40,531 bases of DNA from Acidobacteria bacterium 13_1_40CM_65_14. Its GTDB lineage: Bacteria > Acidobacteriota > Vicinamibacteria > Vicinamibacterales > CAVVIG01. Under the pieces are notes generated by a model. That model was not told the origin of the DNA, ran no database searches, and saw only the letters and a program-made list of their open reading frames with translations. Numbering within the stretch: position 1 is the stretch's first letter; each line of letters begins with the position of its first letter. Location of the stretch: the NCBI GenBank assembly GCA_001917905.1, contig MNEX01000024.1, positions 1 through 40,531 of the forward strand. The letters are read 5' to 3'. Positions 3,615 through 34,378 of the stretch are shown piece by piece. The position numbers and the translations under genes were made by a program.

Positions 3615-4250
3615 ATGGCGGCGAGTCGTCGACGGGAGTACATCTGGCTGACGACCGTCGGCGCGGTGCTCATCGCGGCGATCGTGCTCGTTCGGACCCA
3701 TGAGGACTCGATCAAGACCTTCATCGATCAGAACCCGTTCCTCGGCGTCGTCCTCTACATCGTTCTGAACATCCTCGATGCGGTGCTCGCGCCGGGCGCC
3801 ACCCTGCCGCTGATTCCGGTTGCCGCGCACGCCTGGGGTCCCGTGCCGGCCGCGATCGTCACGACGATCGGATGGACGGCGGGCTCGCTGATTGCGTTTC
3901 TCATCGCCAGGCGATGGGGTTATCCGATCGTGAAGAAGCTCACGTCGGTGGAACGCCTGCGCCGGATGAAGAAATACATTCCCGAAGATCTGTTCTGGAG
4001 CATCGTCCTGCTGCGGCTCGTCCTCCCGATGGACGTCATGAGTTACGTGCTGGGATTGTTCACCGATATCAGCTGGCCGCGGTACGTCGCCGCGACGGCT
4101 TTGGGCGTCGCGCCGTCGGCGTTCGTGCTCGCGTACGTGGGGAAGCTTCCGAACGCGTACGACTTCATCACGTTCGGCGTCGGAGCCGGAGTGGTCATCG
4201 CCTATGTCATCGTCGCGCGGCGGCGGCACCGCCGCCGCGCGGCGGCATAG
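3615..4250 (+). CDS. VTT/DedA-like (TVP38/TMEM64) membrane protein
   Basis: 211 aa with an N-terminal helix (about 10-27) and further helices across the protein. The VTT core shows as VLAPGATLPLIPVAAHAWG, then GWTAGSLIAFLIARRWG, followed by LRLVLPMDVMSYVLGLF and a C-terminal helix ending in an Arg/His-rich tail RRRHRRRAAA. The ARRWG and RLVLP-G pattern is the core of the SNARE-associated/VTT family, inner-membrane proteins now linked to lipid transport across the bilayer. The exact cargo here is unknown. ATG 3615 has no strong ribosome site nearby. It is convergent with the PLP enzyme gene across a heptamer hairpin. Confidence 0.8.
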   Translation: MAASRRREYIWLTTVGAVLIAAIVLVRTHEDSIKTFIDQNPFLGVVLYIVLNILDAVLAPGATLPLIPVAAHAWGPVPAAIVTTIGWTAGSLIAFLIARRWGYPIVKKLTSVERLRRMKKYIPEDLFWSIVLLRLVLPMDVMSYVLGLFTDISWPRYVAATALGVAPSAFVLAYVGKLPNAYDFITFGVGAGVVIAYVIVARRRHRRRAAA

Positions 4251-4255
4251 GTCTT

Positions 4256-4391
4256 CTGAAATTTCAGATTTCAGATTGCAGATTTCAGATTGAATGTTGA
4301 TTGCTGATTGCTGATTGCTGATTGCTGATTGCGTTTGAATCTGCAATCTACAAATCAATCTGCAATCTGAAATCTGAAATCTGCAATCTCA
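4256..4391. repeat. Heptamer inverted array (ATTTCAG / GATTGCT type)
   Basis: The left arm (about 4258-4291) is built of ATTTCAG/ATTGCAG units, the centre (about 4298-4332) of four to five GATTGCT units, and the right arm (about 4347-4389) of AATCTGA/AATCTGC units complementary to the left arm. All three parts have a 7-bp period. It fills the whole space between two convergent genes and would fold into a long stem. Confidence 0.85.
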
Positions 4392-4397
4392 GGATCG

Positions 4398-16710: not shown

Positions 16711-17050
16711 CACGTAAGCCGACAGGTCATCCCTTCACGTGCAGTTCAGCGATGCGGTGACCTCGACGGGAACGCCGGCGATGCGTGTCGACTCGACGAG
16801 CTCGGCCGAGATCGTGCTGCAGGATGGATCGGGCGGTGCGGCGCCGCTCGGCTGGGGATGGGCGGACAACGGGTGGGGCGTCGCTGGAGCGAACATCTTC
16901 TTCGAGACGACCGGCACGCCAATGAAGTTATCTGATTCGATACAGGTGGCTATCCAAACGGATATAAGCGCTGATGTGCAACTCGCTCCCTTAACGCGCG
17001 TTGCAGAATTACAACTCGCCACCACGGAGGACACGGGGGACAGCACGTAA
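16711..17050 (+). pseudogene. C-terminal fossil of a carbohydrate-binding-like domain
   Basis: After a TAA the frame reads SSLHVQFSDAVTSTGTPAMR, SSAEIVLQDGSGG and APLGWGWADNGWGVAGANIF, resembling the last strands of the sugar-binding-like domain found at the C-terminus of secreted hydrolases and propellers in soil bacteria. The usual last strands are missing: after TTGTP the sequence turns AT-rich and unrelated. A GTG at 16739 opens a 103-codon frame, but no ribosome site or family start supports a real gene. Confidence 0.45.
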
Positions 17051-17143
17051 TGCGGATTGAGGATTGCGGAATGCGGGATTCAATCGAACGATAAATCCGC
17101 AATCCTCAATCCTCAATCCGCAATGAGGTGTCCTCTGTGGTGG
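17019..17143. repeat. Nested palindrome: CCACCACGG arms around an ATTGCGG heptamer hairpin
   Basis: The outer arms are CCACCACGGAGGACAC (17019-17034) and GTGTCCTCTGTGGTGG (17128-17143), complementary apart from one position. Between them sits a second inverted pair of 7-bp units (GGATTGA, GGATTGC at 17052-17080; CAATCCT, CAATCCG at 17093-17124). One repeat type appears to have landed inside the other. Confidence 0.85.
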
Positions 17144-22919: not shown

Positions 22920-24281
22920 CTACGGTTTGCCGCGTTCCTCCGCACGCGCGCCGCGCAGGATCCCGGTCATGGCGTAGTTGGCCTCGTGACACGCATACTC
23001 GAAGATGCGATCGTCGCTCTTCGTCATTCCGATCGCTGTCGACCAGGGCTTCGTGAACGCCGTCGGGTTGTCGATCGTGAATTCGTACAGCAAAGTGCCG
23101 GGGCCTGTGCGGGTGAAGCGCTCGACCACATGCAGGTTCCCGTCGGCTCCCCTGAAGTTGGTCTTGTCGGTGAAGTTCGTCGTGTCGACAACGAGCGTGT
23201 CGCCTTCCCATCGCCCGCGCGAATCGCCCAGCCATTTGCGAATCGCCTGAGCGGTGTGCGGACGGCCGTCGAGCGGGACGATCCGCGCGTCGTGGATCAT
23301 CTCGTTGAGGATGATCACGTGGTCGGGGAACTGAAAGATCTGCACGAAGTTGTTGTACGGACCCGGCACGATCGGCGGTCCTGCGCCAAAGAGCAGACAG
23401 CGCGTGGGCAGCCCTTGGTTCTCTGGACCGTCGGTCGGATGATCGCGGCGGTCGGCCGCGCGCACGTCCGCGCGCTGCTTCCCGCTTGGTGTCAGCGCCG
23501 GAATCTTGCCGTCGGCCGGATCGACGATGAGCGAGGTTCGCTTCCTGCCGTTCACAACCGTCAGCACCGAGCCGCGATCGAACCAGGCCTCGTTGTACGC
23601 GCCGCCGACGTCCGCTTCGGGCGACGATTTGTCGCGGCGGTCGCGGTTATTTGCTTCCACGGTGCGCCGTTCGTACGCGGCGGCTTCGTCGGCGGTCAGC
23701 TCCGGTTTGCCGGCGAACTCGGCCGGCCGCTCGAGCGGTGTGATCGTCGCAAAACTCCACACGCCCTCCAGATCCGGCTTGCCCACCGAAGCCGGCGGCG
23801 AGGGTGAGCGCACCGAAGCCGACGGCGAAGGTTGGGCGGCCGCTGCGGCGGCCGGCGTGTCCGCGACCGCCGGCAGCGATCGTCTGCCGTAGTTCGGGCG
23901 GTAGTCCTGATGGCACTGCACGCACGACGTGTAGAGCGCGTCGTTGAGCTCGACGAGCGCGTTGACGTCGCGGCGCTTCGCCGCGTCGGACGCCGCGGCG
24001 CTCGCGTCGATCATCAGCTTCGCGTCGGCCATCCAGCGGGTGCGATCGCGGAAATACATCGGCCCCGCCAGCGCCTTCGCGGCGTCGGCGAGCGCCGACG
24101 TCTTCGCTTCGAGCGCGCGCCAGTCGGCGTCGTTGGCCGGCGTCCGCGTGGAGATGTAGAAGATCGCATCCGACGTCGGGTAAATCGGATCGATCATCAG
24201 CTCGCTCATCGTCTTGGCCTCGTGAGGCGATGGCGATCCCGCCTGAGCGGCGACGAACAGCAGTATGGCGATGATGCGCAT
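22920..24281 (-). CDS. Cytochrome c domain fused to a 'PDLxGxW' family secreted domain
   Basis: 453 aa. After a signal peptide, residues about 25-133 are a helical c-type cytochrome domain with one haem motif CVQCH (Cys120-His124), alignable with the stand-alone cytochrome at 34401-34865. An Ala/Pro/Ser linker (about 138-163) joins it to the paralogous domain shared by four neighbouring genes: GKPDLEGVWSFATITPLERP, HDARIVPLDG, WLGDSRGRWEGDTLVVDTTN, NLHVVERFTRTGPGTLLYEF and FEYACHEANYAMTGILRGAR. The fusion suggests that the unnamed domain works with an electron-transfer protein in the periplasm. It is the last gene of the minus-strand cluster, after a CCACCACGG palindrome. Confidence 0.8.
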   Translation of the reverse strand: MRIIAILLFVAAQAGSPSPHEAKTMSELMIDPIYPTSDAIFYISTRTPANDADWRALEAKTSALADAAKALAGPMYFRDRTRWMADAKLMIDASAAASDAAKRRDVNALVELNDALYTSCVQCHQDYRPNYGRRSLPAVADTPAAAAAAQPSPSASVRSPSPPASVGKPDLEGVWSFATITPLERPAEFAGKPELTADEAAAYERRTVEANNRDRRDKSSPEADVGGAYNEAWFDRGSVLTVVNGRKRTSLIVDPADGKIPALTPSGKQRADVRAADRRDHPTDGPENQGLPTRCLLFGAGPPIVPGPYNNFVQIFQFPDHVIILNEMIHDARIVPLDGRPHTAQAIRKWLGDSRGRWEGDTLVVDTTNFTDKTNFRGADGNLHVVERFTRTGPGTLLYEFTIDNPTAFTKPWSTAIGMTKSDDRIFEYACHEANYAMTGILRGARAEERGKP

Positions 24282-24326
24282 GCGCCGAGTCTACACCCGA
24301 CGGCTACAAGCCAAGAATCAAGCTCT

Positions 24327-24412
24327 CCACCACGGAGGACACTGAGGACGCGGAGGAAGAATCCCGTTTTGAACAGGTTTGAACCTCCGTGTCGTCCGTT
24401 CCCCCGTGGTGG
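24327..24412. repeat. CCACCACGG-type inverted repeat
   Basis: The left arm (24327-24356) starts CCACCACGGAGGACAC and the right arm (24384-24412) ends CCCCGTGGTGG; GGAGGAC/TGAGGAC words repeat every nine bases. The same outer-arm sequence occurs at 17019 and 17128. It occupies most of the 149-bp gap between two genes of the cluster. Confidence 0.8.
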
Positions 24413-24430
24413 CTAGGTATGACGTCGGGC

Positions 24431-25549
24431 TTATCGTGCTCGCGGCACCGGTCTGGCGAACTTCGCCGCGTCAATCGGGACATTCGGCTGGATGTCCGTC
24501 AGCACGACGCGATCGCGCCCGTCCAGCCACGAGAAGGTCCAGCGGAACGGCATCATGACGCCGGCCACCGGGCGATAGTCCGCGTAGTCGGTTTGTGTCG
24601 GAACGCGGCCCATCGCCGAGTTCGCGTAGCGCACCATCCGGTTGAGTAGCCCCGTCTCCTTGTCGAAGTAAAACGTGGCGACCAGACCGCTGGCGCCGCT
24701 CCCCTGGACGACATTGACCTCGCGGCCGTCGATGGTTGTTGGGTGATTGACGCGCCAATTGGTGAGAAATTCCTTGATCCGACCTGGAAACGCCATCCGC
24801 GCGTCCAGCCGGACCCCTTCGAGCTCGCCTCCGGTGAAGTCGTAATCCTTCACCGCGGTCAGCGGCGTCATGATCGAACCGTCGCGGCCGTCGAAGGCCC
24901 TGACAATGTCTCCGTTGGCGGTGTGGACGATCGTGGTGCGCTGATCGGGAGCCTTCGCATAGAATTCCGCGGGGAGCCCGCCTGACACGTACCCCGTACT
25001 GGTTCCCTTCGCGACATAGGCGGTGAGGCTGGCGAGCCGCGCGGCGCCGCCGAGCGCCTGAATATACTTGTCGAAGATCGAATCGGCGGAAGGCATGCCG
25101 GCTGCGGCCGGCAGAATGTCGTCGGGCTCCAACATCGCCTCTCCGTACACCGTATCCAGAGTCGGCGTGACCACGGGACGATCGCGGTTGCGGTGGCAGG
25201 TCCAACAGGTCACGACCTGCCGTCCGTTGAAATTCGTTTTATTGATGGCCTGCACCATCTGCGCCATCTTGCGCGCGGTCCGCTTTCTGGGGGTGTCGAC
25301 CTCCCAATGTTCGTTGTCATGGCACTCACCGCAGCACATGCTCAGAGCGGCCGAAAACAGGCCCATCGTTCCCATGAATTCGTCCACGGGAATCCCGGTG
25401 AGCACCTGCACGTTCTTGAAGACTTCTTGCGACATCTGCGGCTTCAGCGCTGACGCGGGCTGGGGCCCGCTTGCGGCCAACGCGATCCCAATCACACAGA
25501 CGACCGTCATCGCTGCGACAGCAAGGACCAACGGCCTCGACCACATCAT
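24431..25549 (-). CDS. Photosynthetic-reaction-centre-type cytochrome c subunit family protein with LolA-like C-terminal domain
   Basis: 372 aa. A signal/anchor helix (about 6-27) is followed by the reaction-centre cytochrome pattern EVFKNVQVLTGIPVDEFMG, with haem motifs CGECH (73-77) and CWTCH (115-119). Only two of the usual four haem sites are present, as in many non-phototrophic Acidobacteria proteins of this family. From about residue 145 a second domain (DSIFDKYIQALGGAARLASL, VVQGSGASGLVATFYFDKET, TDYADYRPVAGVMMPFRW) resembles LolA/outer-membrane lipoprotein-sorting folds. I start at ATG 25549, where the signal helix begins; an in-frame ATG at 25588, inside heptamer repeats, would add MLNKSAIRNPQSA. 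The repeat abuts the start, leaving no ribosome site. Confidence 0.82.
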   Translation of the reverse strand: MMWSRPLVLAVAAMTVVCVIGIALAASGPQPASALKPQMSQEVFKNVQVLTGIPVDEFMGTMGLFSAALSMCCGECHDNEHWEVDTPRKRTARKMAQMVQAINKTNFNGRQVVTCWTCHRNRDRPVVTPTLDTVYGEAMLEPDDILPAAAGMPSADSIFDKYIQALGGAARLASLTAYVAKGTSTGYVSGGLPAEFYAKAPDQRTTIVHTANGDIVRAFDGRDGSIMTPLTAVKDYDFTGGELEGVRLDARMAFPGRIKEFLTNWRVNHPTTIDGREVNVVQGSGASGLVATFYFDKETGLLNRMVRYANSAMGRVPTQTDYADYRPVAGVMMPFRWTFSWLDGRDRVVLTDIQPNVPIDAAKFARPVPRAR

Positions 25550-25757
25550 TGCGGATTGCGGATTGCGGATTGCGGATTTATTGAGCATGATTTTTGGTTT
25601 GTGGATTGGGCTGGCCATGAATTCGAAGAATCAGCAGCGATCAGCCATCAGCCATGTGCCGTCAGTCATCAGCGATACCGAATAGCGAATAGGGAACAAT
25701 CAAGAATAGGCAATGAACAATCGACAATGAACAATCAACAATAAATCCGCAATCCGC
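25550..25757. repeat. Heptamer array between cytochrome and paralogue A
   Basis: ATTGCGG units run from 25549 to about 25580, then ATTTATTGAGCATGAT. CATCAGC-type units lie around 25637-25675, CAATGAA/CAATCAA units at about 25701-25740, and the opposing arm AATCCGC units at 25742-25757. All have 7-bp spacing. The right arm runs into the coding end of paralogue A. Confidence 0.8.
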
Positions 25758-26745
25758 AATCCGCAATCCCTTCGTGGCACGCGTACTCGTAGATGAGGCC
25801 GTTGGTCGCGGGCCAGGTGTATTCCGCCGTCCACGGCTCGGTCCACGTCGTCGGATCCTCGATCGTGAACTGATAGCGAAGCGTCTTCGGACCCGTGCGC
25901 GTGAAGCGCTCGACGACGTGCAGGCTCTCGCTCGATCCGCGGAAGCGCGTCTTGTCGCTGAAGTTCGTCGTGTCGACGACGAGCGTGTCGCCTTCCCAGC
26001 GCCCGACCGAATCGCCCAGCCACTTCCGTACGCTCGTCGGCGCATGCGGCGCGTTCATGCGGACGACGCGCGCGTCGTGCACCATCTCGGTGAGGATCAT
26101 CACGTGGTCCGGCGTCTGCACGATCTGGTGGAGGTTGTTGTAAAAGTAGGTCGGCAGGATGGGCGGACCTGACGTCGAGCTGAATCCGACCAGACACCGC
26201 TCGGCAAGCGGTCGGATTTCGGGATCGTTATACGCATTCGGCCCTTCGAATCCGGGATCGTCTTCCCGGGCCGCCGCGTCCGAGGTGGGCCTGGCGTTGT
26301 AGTCGGCGCTGCTGCGGCGCTTTTGCGCGTCCGGCGTCAGGGCCGGGACGCGTCCGTCGGCCGGGTCGATGAGCAGCGACGCGCGCCTCTGCCCGTCGAC
26401 CACGGTGTAATGCGATCCGGGATCGAGCCAGAAATTGTTGTAGCCGCCGACGTTGCCGTACGGTCCCGGCGATCCGTCGCCGCCCTTCGGCGGCGCGTCG
26501 CGGTCCGCTTTGATCGGCGCGGCCAAGGCATCGGTTCGCTGCGCGACATCCTTCTCCAGCTTCGCGGCCTGCTCGTCGGTGAGCACGAGCGGCGTGCCGG
26601 CGCGGCGTTCGAGCGGCGTCAGCGTCGCGAGATCGTAAGTGCCCTGCAGATCCGGATGGCCCTCTGCAGTGCGAGGCAATGAGGAAGGTTTGGTCTGTCC
26701 GATGAGGAGGGCCGGTGCGATCCAGACGGCCGCGACAATCGCCAT
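25735..26745 (-). CDS. Secreted 'PDLxGxW' family protein A, C-terminus cut by a repeat
   Basis: 336 aa. The signal peptide MAIVAAVWIAPALLIGQ is followed by EGHPDLQGTYDLATLTPLER, YNNFWLDPGSHYTVVDGQRR, CLVGFSSTSGPPILPTYFYN, MVHDARVVRMN, WLGDSVGRWEGDTLVVDTTN and LIYEYACHEG. Paralogues continue NYA...ILRGAR, but here the last ten residues (IADCGLRIYC) are encoded by ATTGCGG repeats, which also provide the stop, so about 20 native residues are lost. The family is a large set of exported acidobacterial proteins that I cannot match to a named domain. ATG 26745 starts the signal peptide; an upstream in-frame ATG in the repeat (26784) would add MFNKSAVRIPQCA. Confidence 0.72.
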   Translation of the reverse strand: MAIVAAVWIAPALLIGQTKPSSLPRTAEGHPDLQGTYDLATLTPLERRAGTPLVLTDEQAAKLEKDVAQRTDALAAPIKADRDAPPKGGDGSPGPYGNVGGYNNFWLDPGSHYTVVDGQRRASLLIDPADGRVPALTPDAQKRRSSADYNARPTSDAAAREDDPGFEGPNAYNDPEIRPLAERCLVGFSSTSGPPILPTYFYNNLHQIVQTPDHVMILTEMVHDARVVRMNAPHAPTSVRKWLGDSVGRWEGDTLVVDTTNFSDKTRFRGSSESLHVVERFTRTGPKTLRYQFTIEDPTTWTEPWTAEYTWPATNGLIYEYACHEGIADCGLRIYC

Positions 26746-26750
26746 GGCGC

Positions 26751-26832
26751 ATTGAGGAATGCGGACTGCGGATTTATTGAACATGATGGAATCCACAAGA
26801 AATCCGCAATCCGCAATCCTCAATCCGCAATG
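26751..26832. repeat. ATTGCGG heptamer hairpin, copy 1 of the duplicated pair
   Basis: The left arm (about 26751-26779) is ATTGAGGAATGCGGACTGCG and onward; the right arm (about 26800-26832) is AATCCGCAATCCGCAATCCT and onward, with a loop near AACATGATGG. The right arm ends at the stop of the chimeric gene (26833), and the left arm starts five bases before ATG 26745. Confidence 0.85.
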
Positions 26833-27864
26833 TCATTTTGTCTCCTTGAGCCGCGCGCCGCGGAGAATGTTGCCGAGCGCGTAGTTGCCTTCGTGGCACG
26901 CGTACTCGTACAGATGCTCGTCGGTCGCAGGCCACGTGTACTCGCCCGTCCACGGCTTGGTCCACGTCGCGGCATCCTCGATCGTGAAGCGGTAGAGCAG
27001 CGTCTTCGCATCGACGCGGGTGAAGCGCTCGACGACGTGCAGGTTCTCGGTTGCGCCGCGAAATCGCGTCTTGTCCGTGAAGTTGGTCGTGTCGACGACC
27101 AGCGTGTCGCCGTCCCAGCGGCCGACCGAATCGCCCATCCACTTGCGGATCGTGGACGGGAAGTGCGGTGCGTTCATGCGGACGATGCGGGCGTCGTGCA
27201 CCATCTCGTTGAGGATGATCACGTGCTCCGGCGTCTGCACGATCTGATGCAGGTTGTTGTAGAGCTAGGTCGGCAGGATGGGCGGACCTGACGTCGAGCT
27301 GAATCCGACCAGACACCGCTCGGCAAGCGGTCGGATTTCGGGATCGTTATACGCATTCGGCCCTTCGAATCCGGGATCGTCTTCCCGGGCCGCCGCGTCC
27401 GAGGTGGGCCTGGCGTTGTAGTCGGCGCTGCTGCGGCGCTTTTGCGCGTCCGGCGTCAGGGCCGGGACGCGTCCGTCGGCCGGGTCGATGAGCAGCGACG
27501 CGCGCCTCTGCCCGTCGACCACGGTGTAATGCGATCCGGGATCGAGCCAGAAATTGTTGTAGCCGCCGACGTTGCCGTACGGTCCCGGCGATCCGTCGCC
27601 GCCCTTCGGCGGCGCGTCGCGGTCCGCTTTGATCGGCGCGGCCAAGGCATCGGTTCGCTGCGCGACATCCTTCTCCAGCTTCGCGGCCTGCTCGTCGGTG
27701 AGCACGAGCGGCGTGCCGGCGCGGCGTTCGAGCGGCGTCAGCGTCGCGAGATCGTAAGTGCCCTGCAGATCCGGATGGCCCTCTGCAGTGCGAGGCAATG
27801 AGGAAGGTTTGGTCTGTCCGATGAGGAGGGCCGGTGCGATCCAGACGGCCGCGACAATCGCCAT
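26833..27864 (-). pseudogene. Chimeric A/B paralogue created by the duplication, one in-frame amber codon
   Basis: From ATG 27864 the sequence equals paralogue A up to SGPPILPT, then a TAG (27267-27265), then in the same frame LYNNLHQIVQTPEHVIILNE and the rest of paralogue B to NILRGARLKETK. Without the TAG the protein would be a complete 343-residue family member, unlike gene A, which lacks this C-terminus. The stop spans the crossover: ACC-TA comes from A and G-CTC from B. It is either a very recent pseudogene, an amber-suppressed gene or an assembly error. Confidence 0.75.
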
Positions 27865-27869
27865 GGCGC

Positions 27870-27951
27870 ATTGAGGAATGCGGACTGCGGATTTATTGAA
27901 CATGATGGAATCCACAAGAAATCCGCAATCCGCAATCCTCAATCCGCAATG
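27870..27951. repeat. ATTGCGG heptamer hairpin, copy 2 of the duplicated pair
   Basis: Same sequence as 26751-26832 at an offset of 1119. It separates gene B (stop at 27952) from the chimera (start 27864). Confidence 0.85.
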
Positions 27952-28998
27952 TCATTTTGTCTCCTTGAGCCGCGCGCCGCGGAGAATGTTGCCGAGCGCG
28001 TAGTTGCCTTCGTGGCACGCGTACTCGTACAGATGCTCGTCGGTCGCAGGCCACGTGTACTCGCCCGTCCACGGCTTGGTCCACGTCGCGGCATCCTCGA
28101 TCGTGAAGCGGTAGAGCAGCGTCTTCGCATCGACGCGGGTGAAGCGCTCGACGACGTGCAGGTTCTCGGTTGCGCCGCGAAATCGCGTCTTGTCCGTGAA
28201 GTTGGTCGTGTCGACGACCAGCGTGTCGCCGTCCCAGCGGCCGACCGAATCGCCCATCCACTTGCGGATCGTGGACGGGAAGTGCGGTGCGTTCATGCGG
28301 ACGATGCGGGCGTCGTGCACCATCTCGTTGAGGATGATCACGTGCTCCGGCGTCTGCACGATCTGATGCAGGTTGTTGTAGAGCACCGGCAGCGCGGGCG
28401 GACCGGAAGTCGATCCGAATCCGAGTAGACAGCGCTCGCCGAGTGGACGGCGCTCCGGGTCGTCGTAGGCGCCGGGCGTGGGATCGAGGCCCGGGTCGTC
28501 TTCGCGCGCCTGCTCATCGGACGTCGCGCGCGTGACGCGCCCCGTACTTGCCGTCCGCTGCTGCGCCTGCGGCGTCATCGGCGGAATCCGGCCGTCCGGC
28601 GGATCGACGATGACCGACATTCGCTTGCGGCCGTCCACCATGACGTACCGCGTCCCGTTGTCGATCCAGAAATTGTTGTAACCGCCAACGTTGCCCGCGG
28701 CTCCCGGCGATCCGTCACCACCGACCGGCGGCGCGTCGCGGTCGCCTTTGCTCGGCAGCCCCGCGCGGAACTTCCGATCCGCGACCTGCTTCTCGAGCTT
28801 CGCCGCTTCGTCGTCGGTCAACACGAGCGGCTGACCGGCGGCGCGCTCGAGCGGCGTCAGCGTCGCGACGTCGTAGGTACCCTGCAGATCGACGTGGCCG
28901 TCTGGCGTGCGCGCGACCGAAGTTGTCCGCGTTTGGCTCGCGGCGTTTCCCGCCACGAGCCAAACGCCGACGATGAGCGGCAGATAGCGCTGTGTCAT
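27952..28998 (-). CDS. Secreted 'PDLxGxW' family protein B
   Basis: 348 aa, full length. Signal peptide MTQRYLPLIVGVWLVAGNAAS; then GHVDLQGTYDVATLTPLERA, YNNFWIDNGTRYVMVDGRKR, CLLGFGSTSGPPALPVLYNN, WMGDSVGRWDGDTLVVDTTN, ENLHVVERFTRVDAKTLLYR and the conserved end YEYACHEGNYALGNILRGAR. Conserved Asp/Trp/His and a Cys-His pair in YACHE could bind a metal or form a disulphide, but no catalytic motif is known to me. ATG 28998 overlaps the end of the heptamer arm (CCGCAATG), so it has no ribosome site of its own; an in-frame ATG at 29037 would add MLNKSAIRIPQSA. It follows DUF6152 in the cluster. Confidence 0.8.
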   Translation of the reverse strand: MTQRYLPLIVGVWLVAGNAASQTRTTSVARTPDGHVDLQGTYDVATLTPLERAAGQPLVLTDDEAAKLEKQVADRKFRAGLPSKGDRDAPPVGGDGSPGAAGNVGGYNNFWIDNGTRYVMVDGRKRMSVIVDPPDGRIPPMTPQAQQRTASTGRVTRATSDEQAREDDPGLDPTPGAYDDPERRPLGERCLLGFGSTSGPPALPVLYNNLHQIVQTPEHVIILNEMVHDARIVRMNAPHFPSTIRKWMGDSVGRWDGDTLVVDTTNFTDKTRFRGATENLHVVERFTRVDAKTLLYRFTIEDAATWTKPWTGEYTWPATDEHLYEYACHEGNYALGNILRGARLKETK

Positions 28999-29096
28999 TG
29001 CGGATTGAGGAATGCGGATTGCGGATTTATTGAGCATGATTTCACTCGCGAGCTAATCCACAATAAATCCGCAATCCGCAATCCTCAATCCGCAAT
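28997..29096. repeat. ATTGCGG heptamer hairpin with 36-bp arms
   Basis: Arms 28997-29032 and 29061-29096 are complementary at 35 of 36 positions, with a 28-base loop starting AGCATGATTTCACTC. One arm overlaps the ATG of gene B, the other ends two bases before the DUF6152 stop, so the element makes up the entire intergenic space. Confidence 0.92.
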
Positions 29097-29098
29097 TG

Positions 29099-29593
29099 TC
29101 AGAATCCGCCTCGTCCTCGTCCTCGTCCCCGACCAGCGTCCGCCGGATCCGCGCCGTCGGTCGGCGCGCCGGTGCCCGACGATCCGAGGAACAGCTTCCT
29201 GCCGTCGGGGAACGTGACGTTGCGTCCGTTCGCGCGCGACAGCGAGTGATCCCGCGTCTGATAGCCGTCGACGACGATCTCGGTGCCTTTCGCGAGCGAC
29301 TCCTTGGTGATGCCGCGGCGGAGCAGCGTGTTCGGCGTGCCGCCTTCGACCATCCACTCCTCGCACTTCGCGTCAGGCGTGTACTGGCACGGCGTCGTGC
29401 CGTCGGCCTTCGGAATCTCCAGGTGAATCCAGGCGTGGGGGTTCACCCACTCGATGGTGATGATCTTGCCCTTCAGCAGCACCGGCTTGTTCGGGTCGAA
29501 TTCACCGCCGAACGCGTGGTGCGCGATCGCCGGCATGGACGCCGCGGCGGCCAGCCCGATTCCCGCGAGTAATGACGAGAGCTTCGTTCGCAT
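29099..29593 (-). CDS. DUF6152-family secreted protein
   Basis: 164 aa. Signal peptide ends SMPAIAHH; the mature start HHAFGGEFDPNKPVLLKGKI, ITIEWVNPHAWIHLEI, LLRRGITKESLAKGTEIVVD and DGRKLFLGSSGTGAP are the DUF6152 pattern (small periplasmic OB-like beta proteins of unknown role). The N-terminal His-His and the HAW histidine are typical of the family and could bind metal. The tail is RGRGRGRGGF. GGGGAG precedes ATG 29593, and the start is 11 bp after the stop of paralogue C, so the two are an operon. This family is frequently next to the same paralogue type, in my recollection. Confidence 0.82.
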   Translation of the reverse strand: MRTKLSSLLAGIGLAAAASMPAIAHHAFGGEFDPNKPVLLKGKIITIEWVNPHAWIHLEIPKADGTTPCQYTPDAKCEEWMVEGGTPNTLLRRGITKESLAKGTEIVVDGYQTRDHSLSRANGRNVTFPDGRKLFLGSSGTGAPTDGADPADAGRGRGRGRGGF

Positions 29594-29604
29594 CGCATCT
29601 CCCC

Positions 29605-30672
29605 TTATTGCTGTTTTGATTTGGTCTTCGTGTCTTCGGACTCACGCAGCCGCGCGCCGCGGAGGATGTTGCCCATCGCGTAGTTGCCCTCGTGGCAGGC
29701 GTATTCGTACAGATGATCCTGCGTGATCGGCCACGTGTACTCGCCCGTCCACGGCGTGTCCCACGTCTTCGGATCCTCGATCGTGAATCGGTACTTCAGC
29801 GTGTTCGCGTCCGCGCGCGTGAAGCGCTCGGTGACCTTCAGGTTCTCGGTCGCGCCGCGGAAGCGCGTCTTGTCCGTGAAGTTCGTCGTCTCGACGACGA
29901 GCGTGTCGCCCTCCCAGTGACCCACCGAGTCGCCCAGCCACTTGCGGACGTGGGGCGGCGCGTGTTGCGCGTTCAGCCGGATGATGCGCGCGTCGTGCAC
30001 CATCTCGGTGAGGATCATCACCGAGTCCTGCGTCTGCACGATCTGATGGAGGTTGTTGTAGAAGTAGTTCGGCAGAATCGGCGGACCCGAAGTCGATCCG
30101 AATCCCAGGATGCAGCGCTCGCCGAGCGGACGGCGCTCCGGATCGTCGTAGGCGCCGGCGGGCTCGAGGCCCGGATCGGTGCTCTCGGTGGCGTCCGACT
30201 GCAGGCGGGCCAATGCGAAGCGGGACGCTTGCCGCTGCCGCGCGTCCGCCGTCAATGCCGGCACGCGGCCGTCGGGCGGATCGATGACGATCGACGATCG
30301 CTTCTGGCCGTCGACGATGCTGTAGTGCGAGCCGCGGTCGATCCAGAACGAGTTGTAGCCGCCGACGTTGCCCGCGGGGCCGACGGAGCCGTCGCCGCCT
30401 TTGGGCGGCGCCGATCGATCGCCCGCAATCGGCAGGCTGCCGGCCTGCTGCGCGGCGATCGCCTGCTTCTCGAGTTTCGCGGCCTGCTCGTCGGTGAGCA
30501 CCGCAGGCAGTCCGTTGGGCCGCTCGACCGGCGTGAGCATCGCGAGATCGTACATCCCCTGTAGATCCGGTTTGCCGTCGGGCATCCGTGGAATCTTGCT
30601 CGCGGTCTGCGCGTGAGCGATAACCGTCGCCGCACCAACCAGTACGAGCGCAGTCAAAAATCGGCAATGCAT
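29605..30672 (-). CDS. Secreted 'PDLxGxW' family protein C
   Basis: 355 aa, full length. Signal peptide MHCRFLTALVLVGAATVIAHAQ; DGKPDLQGMYDLAMLTPVER, YNSFWIDRGSHYSIVDGQKR, CILGFGSTSGPPILPNYFYN, WLGDSVGHWEGDTLVVETTN, ENLKVTERFTRADANTLKYR and YEYACHEGNYAMGNILRGAR. It is closest in layout to paralogue A but keeps the native C-terminus, which makes it a good reference for what A has lost. The chosen ATG 30672 opens the signal peptide; an in-frame ATG at 30714 is within repeats. Gene D lies upstream across a short heptamer array, and DUF6152 follows immediately. Confidence 0.82.
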   Translation of the reverse strand: MHCRFLTALVLVGAATVIAHAQTASKIPRMPDGKPDLQGMYDLAMLTPVERPNGLPAVLTDEQAAKLEKQAIAAQQAGSLPIAGDRSAPPKGGDGSVGPAGNVGGYNSFWIDRGSHYSIVDGQKRSSIVIDPPDGRVPALTADARQRQASRFALARLQSDATESTDPGLEPAGAYDDPERRPLGERCILGFGSTSGPPILPNYFYNNLHQIVQTQDSVMILTEMVHDARIIRLNAQHAPPHVRKWLGDSVGHWEGDTLVVETTNFTDKTRFRGATENLKVTERFTRADANTLKYRFTIEDPKTWDTPWTGEYTWPITQDHLYEYACHEGNYAMGNILRGARLRESEDTKTKSKQQ

Positions 30673-30689
30673 GAGACTTCTAACACCAA

Positions 30690-30733
30690 TCTTCAATAAA
30701 TCCGCAATCCGCAATCCGCAATCCGCAATACGA
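30690..30733. repeat. Single-arm ATTGCGG-type heptamer array
   Basis: AATAAATCCGCAATCCGCAA and further CAATCCG units end at the stop codon of gene D (30734). The opposite arm is only vestigial, so no long hairpin is expected here. Confidence 0.75.
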
Positions 30734-31606
30734 TTATTGAGTAAGTGGCTTCTTGCGCCACTGGCCGTACATCAATTCCTCGACGAACTCGACACACTTG
30801 AAGTCGAGTAACTGCGCGTTCTTCTCGACGCGGCGGTACAGCGGCATGCTGATCTTCCACGGCCGGGTGAAGGTGTCCGGATCCTCGATCGTCGCCTCGT
30901 ACGAAATGATGTCCGGACTCGTGCGCGTGAAGCGCTCGACGACGTGCAGCTGGTCGCTGTGGAAGTTGCCGGCGCGATCGAACCAGCTCTGATCGTTGAA
31001 CCCTTTCGAATCGACGACGAGCGTGTCGCCTTCCCATTTCGCGACCGACTGGCCCATCCAGGAATCGACGGGCGGTGGTCCTGGATCCTTTAAATAGATG
31101 TTACGGACGGCGCCCGCGTACTGGTAGGCGATGAACAGGGCGCTCGGGCTCTGGAAGATCTGGAACGGCTGGGGCAGGTAGGTTGCGCGCGGCACCCCGG
31201 GCAGGTAGCACTTGATCTCGGGATCGCGCTCCAGCCACTTCTCCTGATTCACTTTTTTCTTCGCGAGCGCCGCCGGCTTGTACGGAATCTCGCCGCCGTC
31301 GACAACGCCGACGCCTGGCGGCACGGACCCGACCGCGCCGAGCGCGAGGACCGGCGCCGCGGGCACCGGACCGTACGGGCCCGCTCGCAGCGACATGGCC
31401 GGACGAGCCATGTGCGTCTCGAGATCGTAGTTGGCTTCGTTGAGCGCCTGCCAGATGCCGTTCAAATCGGGTTTGCCATCGGCCGCGCGCGGCGCGCGAT
31501 ACGCGGCCTGACCTTGACCCGACAACGGCTTGATGGCGTGCAGGAAGATCGTGAGCACGGCGGCCGTCGCGATACCGGCGGCAACGCCCTGAAATCTACG
31601 AGGCAT
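30734..31606 (-). CDS. Divergent secreted member (D) of the 'PDLxGxW' family
   Basis: 290 aa. Signal peptide with GIATAAVLTIFLHAI; then AADGKPDLNGIWQALNEANY, KCYLPGVPRATYLPQPFQIF, YQYAGAVRNIYLKDPG, WMGQSVAKWEGDTLVVDSKG, QLHVVERFTRTSPDIISYEA and EDPDTFTRPWKISMPLYRR. The C-terminus has DFKCVEFVEELMYGQ in place of EYACHEGNYA, so the Cys is kept but the His is not. This is the more widespread subfamily with a CYxPGVPR block. GGGAGG lies eight bases before ATG 31606. It is the first gene of the minus-strand cluster, divergent from the TonB gene. Confidence 0.8.
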   Translation of the reverse strand: MPRRFQGVAAGIATAAVLTIFLHAIKPLSGQGQAAYRAPRAADGKPDLNGIWQALNEANYDLETHMARPAMSLRAGPYGPVPAAPVLALGAVGSVPPGVGVVDGGEIPYKPAALAKKKVNQEKWLERDPEIKCYLPGVPRATYLPQPFQIFQSPSALFIAYQYAGAVRNIYLKDPGPPPVDSWMGQSVAKWEGDTLVVDSKGFNDQSWFDRAGNFHSDQLHVVERFTRTSPDIISYEATIEDPDTFTRPWKISMPLYRRVEKNAQLLDFKCVEFVEELMYGQWRKKPLTQ

Positions 31607-31717
31607 TGGATACACCTCCCGGAAGGAACGGGGGAAATGATAACACCGTTGACATGGCGAGCAGGGCGTCCGAGTATCAGCGCGACTACATCACTGGCGC
31701 CGGGGTCCTAATCTAAC

Positions 31718-34231: not shown

Positions 34232-34378
34232 TCCTGATGGTCTTTAGTCTTTGGTCTTTGGTCGTTCGTCGGACCAATGACCAATGACCAACGACCAACG
34301 ACCAACGACCAACGACCAACGACCAATGACCAATGACCAACGACCAATGACCAACGACCAATGACCAATGACTACGCG
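34232..34378. repeat. ACCAACG/ACCAATG heptamer array
   Basis: The left part has TGGTCTT, TAGTCTT, TGGTCTT, TGGTCGT units; from about 34274 there are roughly fifteen ACCAACG or ACCAATG units, partly complementary to the left part. Everything is at 7-bp spacing. It fills the space between the truncated genes and the cytochrome gene; the 34057-34400 stretch holds no other intact gene. Confidence 0.88.

Follow-up and report, generated by a model that had tools for sequence, protein, structure and literature searches.

Along a minus-strand run of genes in Acidobacteria bacterium 13_1_40CM_65_14, most of the gaps between genes are filled by palindromic repeats, which raises the question of whether these hairpins are punctuation belonging to this gene cluster or elements that came to it from elsewhere. 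The run lies on contig MNEX01000024.1, whose 40,531 nucleotides are called the window here, and its order was verified as D, C, DUF6152, B, chimera, A, reaction-centre (RC) cytochrome and fusion cytochrome. The evidence comes from DNA sequence, that of one draft genome (6.33 Mb, 342 contigs, 87% completeness) with genes called by a home-made caller, together with comparisons to its relatives. We conclude, at a probability of about 0.8, that the hairpins belong to two dispersed, species-specific families of palindromic elements resembling REPINs (doublets of repetitive extragenic palindromes, REPs) or miniature inverted-repeat transposable elements (MITEs), and that they are recent mobile invaders rather than conserved punctuation of the cluster.

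Hairpins are present in five of the seven gaps of the run, and fill most of each. Between DUF6152 and B, a heptamer hairpin (28997–29096) lies 2 nt past the DUF6152 stop, and its two 36-nt arms (28997–29032 and 29061–29096) match at 35 of 36 positions, exactly as an earlier note on this DNA had counted. Heptamer hairpins also lie between B and the chimera (27870–27950, 1 nt past the B stop), between the chimera and A (26751–26831, identical to the former) and, in a longer form, between A and the RC cytochrome (25548–25767), while the gap from the RC to the fusion cytochrome holds a hairpin of CCACCACGG type built of nonamer units, CCACCACGGAGGACACGG (24327–24412). Predicted RNA folds are very stable compared with dinucleotide shuffles (−66.6 kcal/mol, z −10.8; −51.1, z −8.3; −85.9, z −5.2; −53.6, z −6.4), and the window holds 37 copies of the sequence ATTGCGGATTGCGGATT at ≤3 mismatches, where 0.14 would be expected. 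The D to C gap carries a single arm of AATCCGC units (30699–30729), 4 nt past the D stop, a half-element for which we found neither a partner nor a stable fold (−7.1 kcal/mol, z +0.6 against dinucleotide shuffles), so that the count is five gaps and not six; the C to DUF6152 gap contains neither hairpin nor arm. The earlier note, which had excepted only C to DUF6152, was therefore right about most gaps but not about D to C, and one of its hairpins is a duplicate. Its statement that hairpins closely follow the stop of the preceding gene applies to several of them, but not to the A to RC element, where the conserved 3′ end of gene A is missing. At several hairpins the start of the downstream gene falls at the hairpin edge; the ATG of gene B, if its start is as called, includes the last two bases (AT) of the 28997–29096 element.

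Searches across the genome showed that the heptamer hairpins are members of a large family. Each element spans ~75–220 bp and consists of two inverted 36-nt arms of 7-bp units around a variable loop, with one consensus, ATTGCGGATTGAGGATTGCGGATTGCGGATTTATTG, that is identical for both arms. A 19-mer from it, AATCCGCAATCCGCAATCC, gave 297 genome matches at ≤2 mismatches compared with 1 for a reversed control, and by extrapolation the genome contains ~97 elements. Position and density statistics were taken from a 1.04-Mb sample of the genome, using a self-trained gene caller for which stops are exact and starts approximate; the sample was partly selected for element-bearing stretches, which affects density but leaves the within-gap position test unaffected. 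This sample holds 85 heptamer arms (2 in the control), 79 of them intergenic even though intergenic DNA makes up only 15% of it, and arm pairs face inward in 33 cases and outward in one.

The placement of these elements is far from random. Among 46 elements that reside in gaps, 28 lie ≤8 nt from a stop codon, where 1.8 are expected and 1,000 random placements never gave more than 8, and only 2 elements occur in divergent gaps against 10 expected. Typical edges at stops read TGAC|ATTGCGG, TAGAC|ATTGCGG and TAACAC|ATTGCGG, the outer flank of the arm tending to (T)GAC and not to GTAG. The earlier note had offered equal frequency at random non-coding sites as evidence that would count against it; the elements are instead concentrated at stops and rare in divergent gaps. 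The same elements adjoin dozens of unrelated genes, and its picture of the hairpins as a feature of this cluster gives way to one of genome-wide families. The window is nevertheless enriched, with 7 heptamer elements against ~0.62 expected (Poisson 4e-6; 5e-5 without the duplicate), indicating that the local excess is real.

The CCACCACGG hairpin between the two cytochrome genes represents a second dispersed family, made of 9-bp units (CCACCACGGAGGACACGG...). Its inverted pairs in the 1.04-Mb sample are all inward (23, with 0 outward), and 16 of the 23 elements lie ≤40 nt from a stop against 3.8 expected, a looser preference than that of the heptamer family. Nonamer arms match 410 times in the source genome, 102 times in its congener G001, 3 times in G011 and not at all in G010, the last two being other chosen relatives. 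Elsewhere in the window, a heptamer hairpin is nested in the loop of a nonamer hairpin (17019–17143, by repeat search and folding), which we count in favour of mobile elements.

Comparison with relatives, mostly Acidobacteria metagenome-assembled genomes that include gp6 and Luteitalea bins, separates the history of the genes from that of the hairpins. The order TonB receptor, D, C or B, DUF6152 is kept, whereas the homologous gaps of 16 relative loci contain a hairpin in only 2 of 36 cases and a period-7 array, frequently built of a different unit, in 5 of 36. In the DUF6152 to B gap, G011 has a heptamer hairpin and the congener an unrelated repeat; the latter, at 1825–1999 of locus L096 (L- and C-numbers denote loci and contigs outside the window), is a different ~28-bp repeat, CTGACGCT..AAGGTGCTTCG, with a second copy downstream in the opposite orientation (3620–3780). 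The 22-mer inner arm motif ATTGCGGATTGCGGATTTATTG has 115 matches in the source genome, 2 in the congener, 29 in G010 (mostly a variant ending ATTGATTG) and 0–13 in the remaining chosen relatives of the family or order; of 297 genomes drawn from the whole phylum, 13 have at least one match. These uneven counts show families whose sequence is particular to the species and whose abundance is patchy. The 22-mer was absent from the viral contigs searched, a plasmid search gave no match, and the arm sequence was not found printed in the open-access papers searched.

One insertion appears to have cost a gene its end. A conserved tail following the YACHE motif is kept in 53 of 54 homologue C-termini, gene A alone lacking it, and the sequence of gene A runs into the hairpin arm exactly where the tail is lost (CHEG|IADCGLRIYC*). 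The loop of this A to RC hairpin (25584–25743) consists largely of degenerate, drifting 7-bp units (TTGTTGA, TTGTTCA, CTATTCG, TGATGGC) that look as if copied with gradual change.

Within the cluster, part of the repetition is explained by local copying, which supports one of the three roles raised by the earlier note, that of the hairpins as marks of paralogue copying. A tandem duplication of 1,119 bp (26147–27265 and 27266–28384), exact in sequence, carries a hairpin with it, so that the B to chimera and chimera to A hairpins are one hairpin copied and only four are independent. In the chimera, the N-terminal part of A is joined in register to the C-terminal part of B, with a TAG precisely at the junction; the duplication stems either from an unequal crossover of very recent date or from an error of assembly. 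The whole genome has four copies of the inner motif GGATTTATTGARCATGATK, all within the cluster, where they precede B, the chimera, A and the RC gene. As the RC gene is not paralogous to the others, hairpins cannot have been copied by gene duplication alone, implying local movement of elements or conversion between them.

Taken together, the shared consensus, the number of copies and their near absence from relatives show that each family was amplified recently in this lineage from a master sequence. The heptamer family inserts, or survives, preferentially 1–8 nt past stop codons and seldom in divergent gaps, and several copies reached the cluster after its gene order was set, as the relatives that lack them show. 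Local spread then followed: one motif is confined to the cluster, and one hairpin was copied by the tandem duplication between B and A if the assembly is right. Effects on mRNA, such as protection of the 3′ end, stalled ribosomes at the stop codon and weak translation where a start abuts a hairpin, would probably be by-products.

Several observations weigh against this account. Among 32 arm pairs, direct flank repeats of 2–12 bp are not in excess, and no target-site duplication was found; inverted flanks are likewise not above chance, single cases aside (L126 4717–4794 and the nested pair at 17019–17143). No transposase gene was found next to the elements, ~70 Y1 loci being devoid of such heptamer arrays. 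The nearest genome is too diverged for an empty-site comparison at the nucleotide level, the 1,119-bp duplication could have been produced by assembly, the draft genome being fragmented, and the 1–4 nt spacing to stops is tighter than mere tolerance explains, so it could reflect a selected function. In the first of the single cases, the heptamer element sits within a pre-existing terminator-like palindrome (AGCGGAATAG...CTATTCCGCT).

Our leading guess for movement is in trans by a Y1 transposase of the RAYT (REP-associated tyrosine transposase) type. A narrower form of the invader account, compatible with it, would make the elements REPINs moved by the genome's own RAYT (C103:59–697), which we regard as possible though well short of probable. 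The source genome has one detected Y1_Tnp gene, which is RAYT-like (NF047646, 70.7 bits, below the cut-off of 80). Across 60 genomes, Y1_Tnp is present in all 17 with ≥20 heptamer matches and in 26 of the 43 others (Fisher p 0.0013), and within the family alone in 12 of 12 heptamer-rich genomes and 6 of 15 others (p 0.0011). The source RAYT falls in a seven-row Y1 clade with six heptamer-rich genomes, and lack of target-site duplication is what Y1 transposition predicts. However, no heptamer array of this kind was found near the Y1 loci searched in the source genome and its relatives (L119 and 69 more), the 5′ flank of the genome's own RAYT being cut by the contig end; heptamer-rich genomes do not form a single RAYT clade (18 changes on the Y1 tree compared with 22.6 when shuffled); and the arms consist of heptads in tandem, where REPs are imperfect palindromes with a tag. 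With presence correlated to heptamer abundance but linkage lacking, the RAYT is a candidate mobiliser and not a conclusion.

A functional alternative, close to what the earlier note named first, is that the hairpins end, process or protect the mRNA of each cistron and tune the genes separately, in the manner of Escherichia coli REPs. The stable predicted folds speak for it, as do the proximity to stops of 28 of 46 elements and their scarcity in divergent gaps; according to PMC12306157, ribosomes reportedly stall at E. coli REPs placed ≤15 nt from a stop, with reduced translation as a result, and mRNA can be protected by REPs. Most of the evidence points the other way, and we consider this role for the cluster unlikely. 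Hairpins are not kept in homologous clusters, the same elements adjoin unrelated genes, one replaces a conserved C-terminus (gene A) and the D to C gap has only an unpaired arm. Changes between arms are one-sided in 151 cases and two-sided in 12, only 4 of the latter being identical, and arms are no more alike within elements (30.3/36) than between them (30.6/36). This absence of compensatory change argues against a maintained RNA structure, with power that is limited because the copies are recent. Rfam returned no family at its gathering score, only MIR6151 at 25 bits against a gathering score of 71. We also considered intrinsic (Rho-independent) terminators and rejected them: no T-run or U-tract follows the arms, and a scan found 4 terminator-like sites where shuffles gave 7. 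By analogy with E. coli REPs, which the placement beside stops resembles, a side effect on expression is plausible and on mRNA possible.

Formation of the arrays where they stand, with 7-bp units multiplied by replication slippage and copied by fold-back and with no transposition involved, has in its favour a general 7-bp periodicity (varied 7-bp units in the window and relatives, raised intergenic lag-7 matching) and the report that heptamers are the commonest long simple repeats of bacteria, with polymerase slippage proposed (PMC4679880), but is very improbable, since ~97 dispersed elements share the same ordered 36-nt arm, down to its second unit with GAGG and its inner end ATTTATTG, which refutes slippage as the sole mechanism, and pairs are almost all inward, although slippage may shape loops and unit numbers.

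Returning to mobile invaders, we compared the elements with known systems. They resemble REPINs (Bertels and Rainey 2011; PMC3116915) in being high-copy, extragenic, genome-specific inverted pairs with a variable spacer and a predicted hairpin, in which doublets outnumber singlets, but differ in their 36-nt arms of tandem heptads, the absence of an adjoining RAYT gene (L119 and 69 further Y1 loci) and the absence of compensatory changes. A REP unit, that is, an imperfect palindrome with a GTAG/CGTC tag, is also lacking: the arms are direct 7-bp arrays, and a lone arm does not fold. Like MITEs they are non-coding, short and abundant, with 36-nt terminal inverted repeats, but the 32 pairs gave no target-site duplication, and no arm pair enclosing a transposase was seen in the 1.04-Mb sample. 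As REP unit, RAYT adjacency and target-site duplication are all missing, we do not claim membership of either class. Compared by description, the RAYT-like terminal inverted repeat (TIR) families and TIRtrons, including those of Koribacter (PMC3733652), share long inverted repeats, an acidobacterial host, moderate abundance and a lack of GTAG REPs; the known ones flank a tyrosine transposase gene, an arrangement not found here. The REPs near E. coli stops (Liang et al. 2015, cited in PMC12306157) likewise place a strong hairpin right after the stop, but the elements described here differ in sequence and have a longer stem.

Closest by build are two other systems. The P6b loop of the Nostoc trnL intron (Class I motif TDNGATT; PMC4476775) has a stem whose 7-nt units contain a GATT core and whole stem-loops that are swapped for others, but is a single locus in a group I intron, not dispersed at stop codons. 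The TAACTGA heptamers of Beggiatoaceae and cyanobacteria (PMC4679880) are dispersed intergenic 7-bp arrays, patchy among genomes, but are direct repeats 5′ of start codons, unlike the inverted arms past stops seen here. It is conceivable, if doubtful, that palindromes whose arms are tandem arrays of 7-bp (and 9-bp) units form a widespread class of their own among the mobile DNA of bacteria, placed behind stops by an unrecognised mechanism, with the cyanobacterial trnL intron hairpins as the same class in another phylum.

Many bacteria have short palindromes scattered at the ends of their genes, and how they spread and whether they regulate is a wider question. The present family is large, clean and recently amplified, with an exact arm consensus, a strong stop preference, sister genomes nearly devoid of it and one insertion that coincides with a damaged gene, and so makes the question of selfish element or regulator testable. 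Such elements are also an annotation hazard, yielding false N-terminal extensions (MLNKSAIRNPQSAM...) and altered C-termini.

The genes of the run, all on the minus strand, are largely related to one another. D (30734–31615), C (29605–30714), B, A and the fusion cytochrome have in common a secreted domain that no Pfam or NCBIfam model describes. B (27952–29037) probably starts at ~28998 (MTQRYLP...), at the hairpin edge; the chimera (26836–27903), identical to A in its N-terminal and to B in its C-terminal part, has its in-frame TAG at 27265–27267; and in A (25735–26823) the last ~20 residues are swapped for hairpin-encoded ones. The DUF6152 protein (29099–29593) matches PF19649 (4.4e-28) and the RC cytochrome (24431–25618) has a CytoC_RC domain (PF02276, 2e-12). 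By profile and homology searches, the fusion cytochrome (22920–24281) joins a cytochrome c′-like N-terminus to the paralogue domain. A YACHEGNY..ILRGAR C-terminus marks a large family of secreted proteins, itself without a Pfam or NCBIfam model, in which gene B has 36 matches in the source genome and up to 80 in relatives.

Other period-7 repeats occur in the window. Between convergent genes, repeat search and folding revealed a hairpin (4268–4387) of ATTTCAG, ATTGCAG and ATTGCTG units, which, taken as 4253–4394, belongs to a sister family of the heptamer elements with further cases at L165 166–263 and L147 3301–3393. A ~140-bp array of another heptamer (ACCAACG/ACCAATG) lies at 34235–34378, directly upstream of an open reading frame starting at 34361 or 34401.

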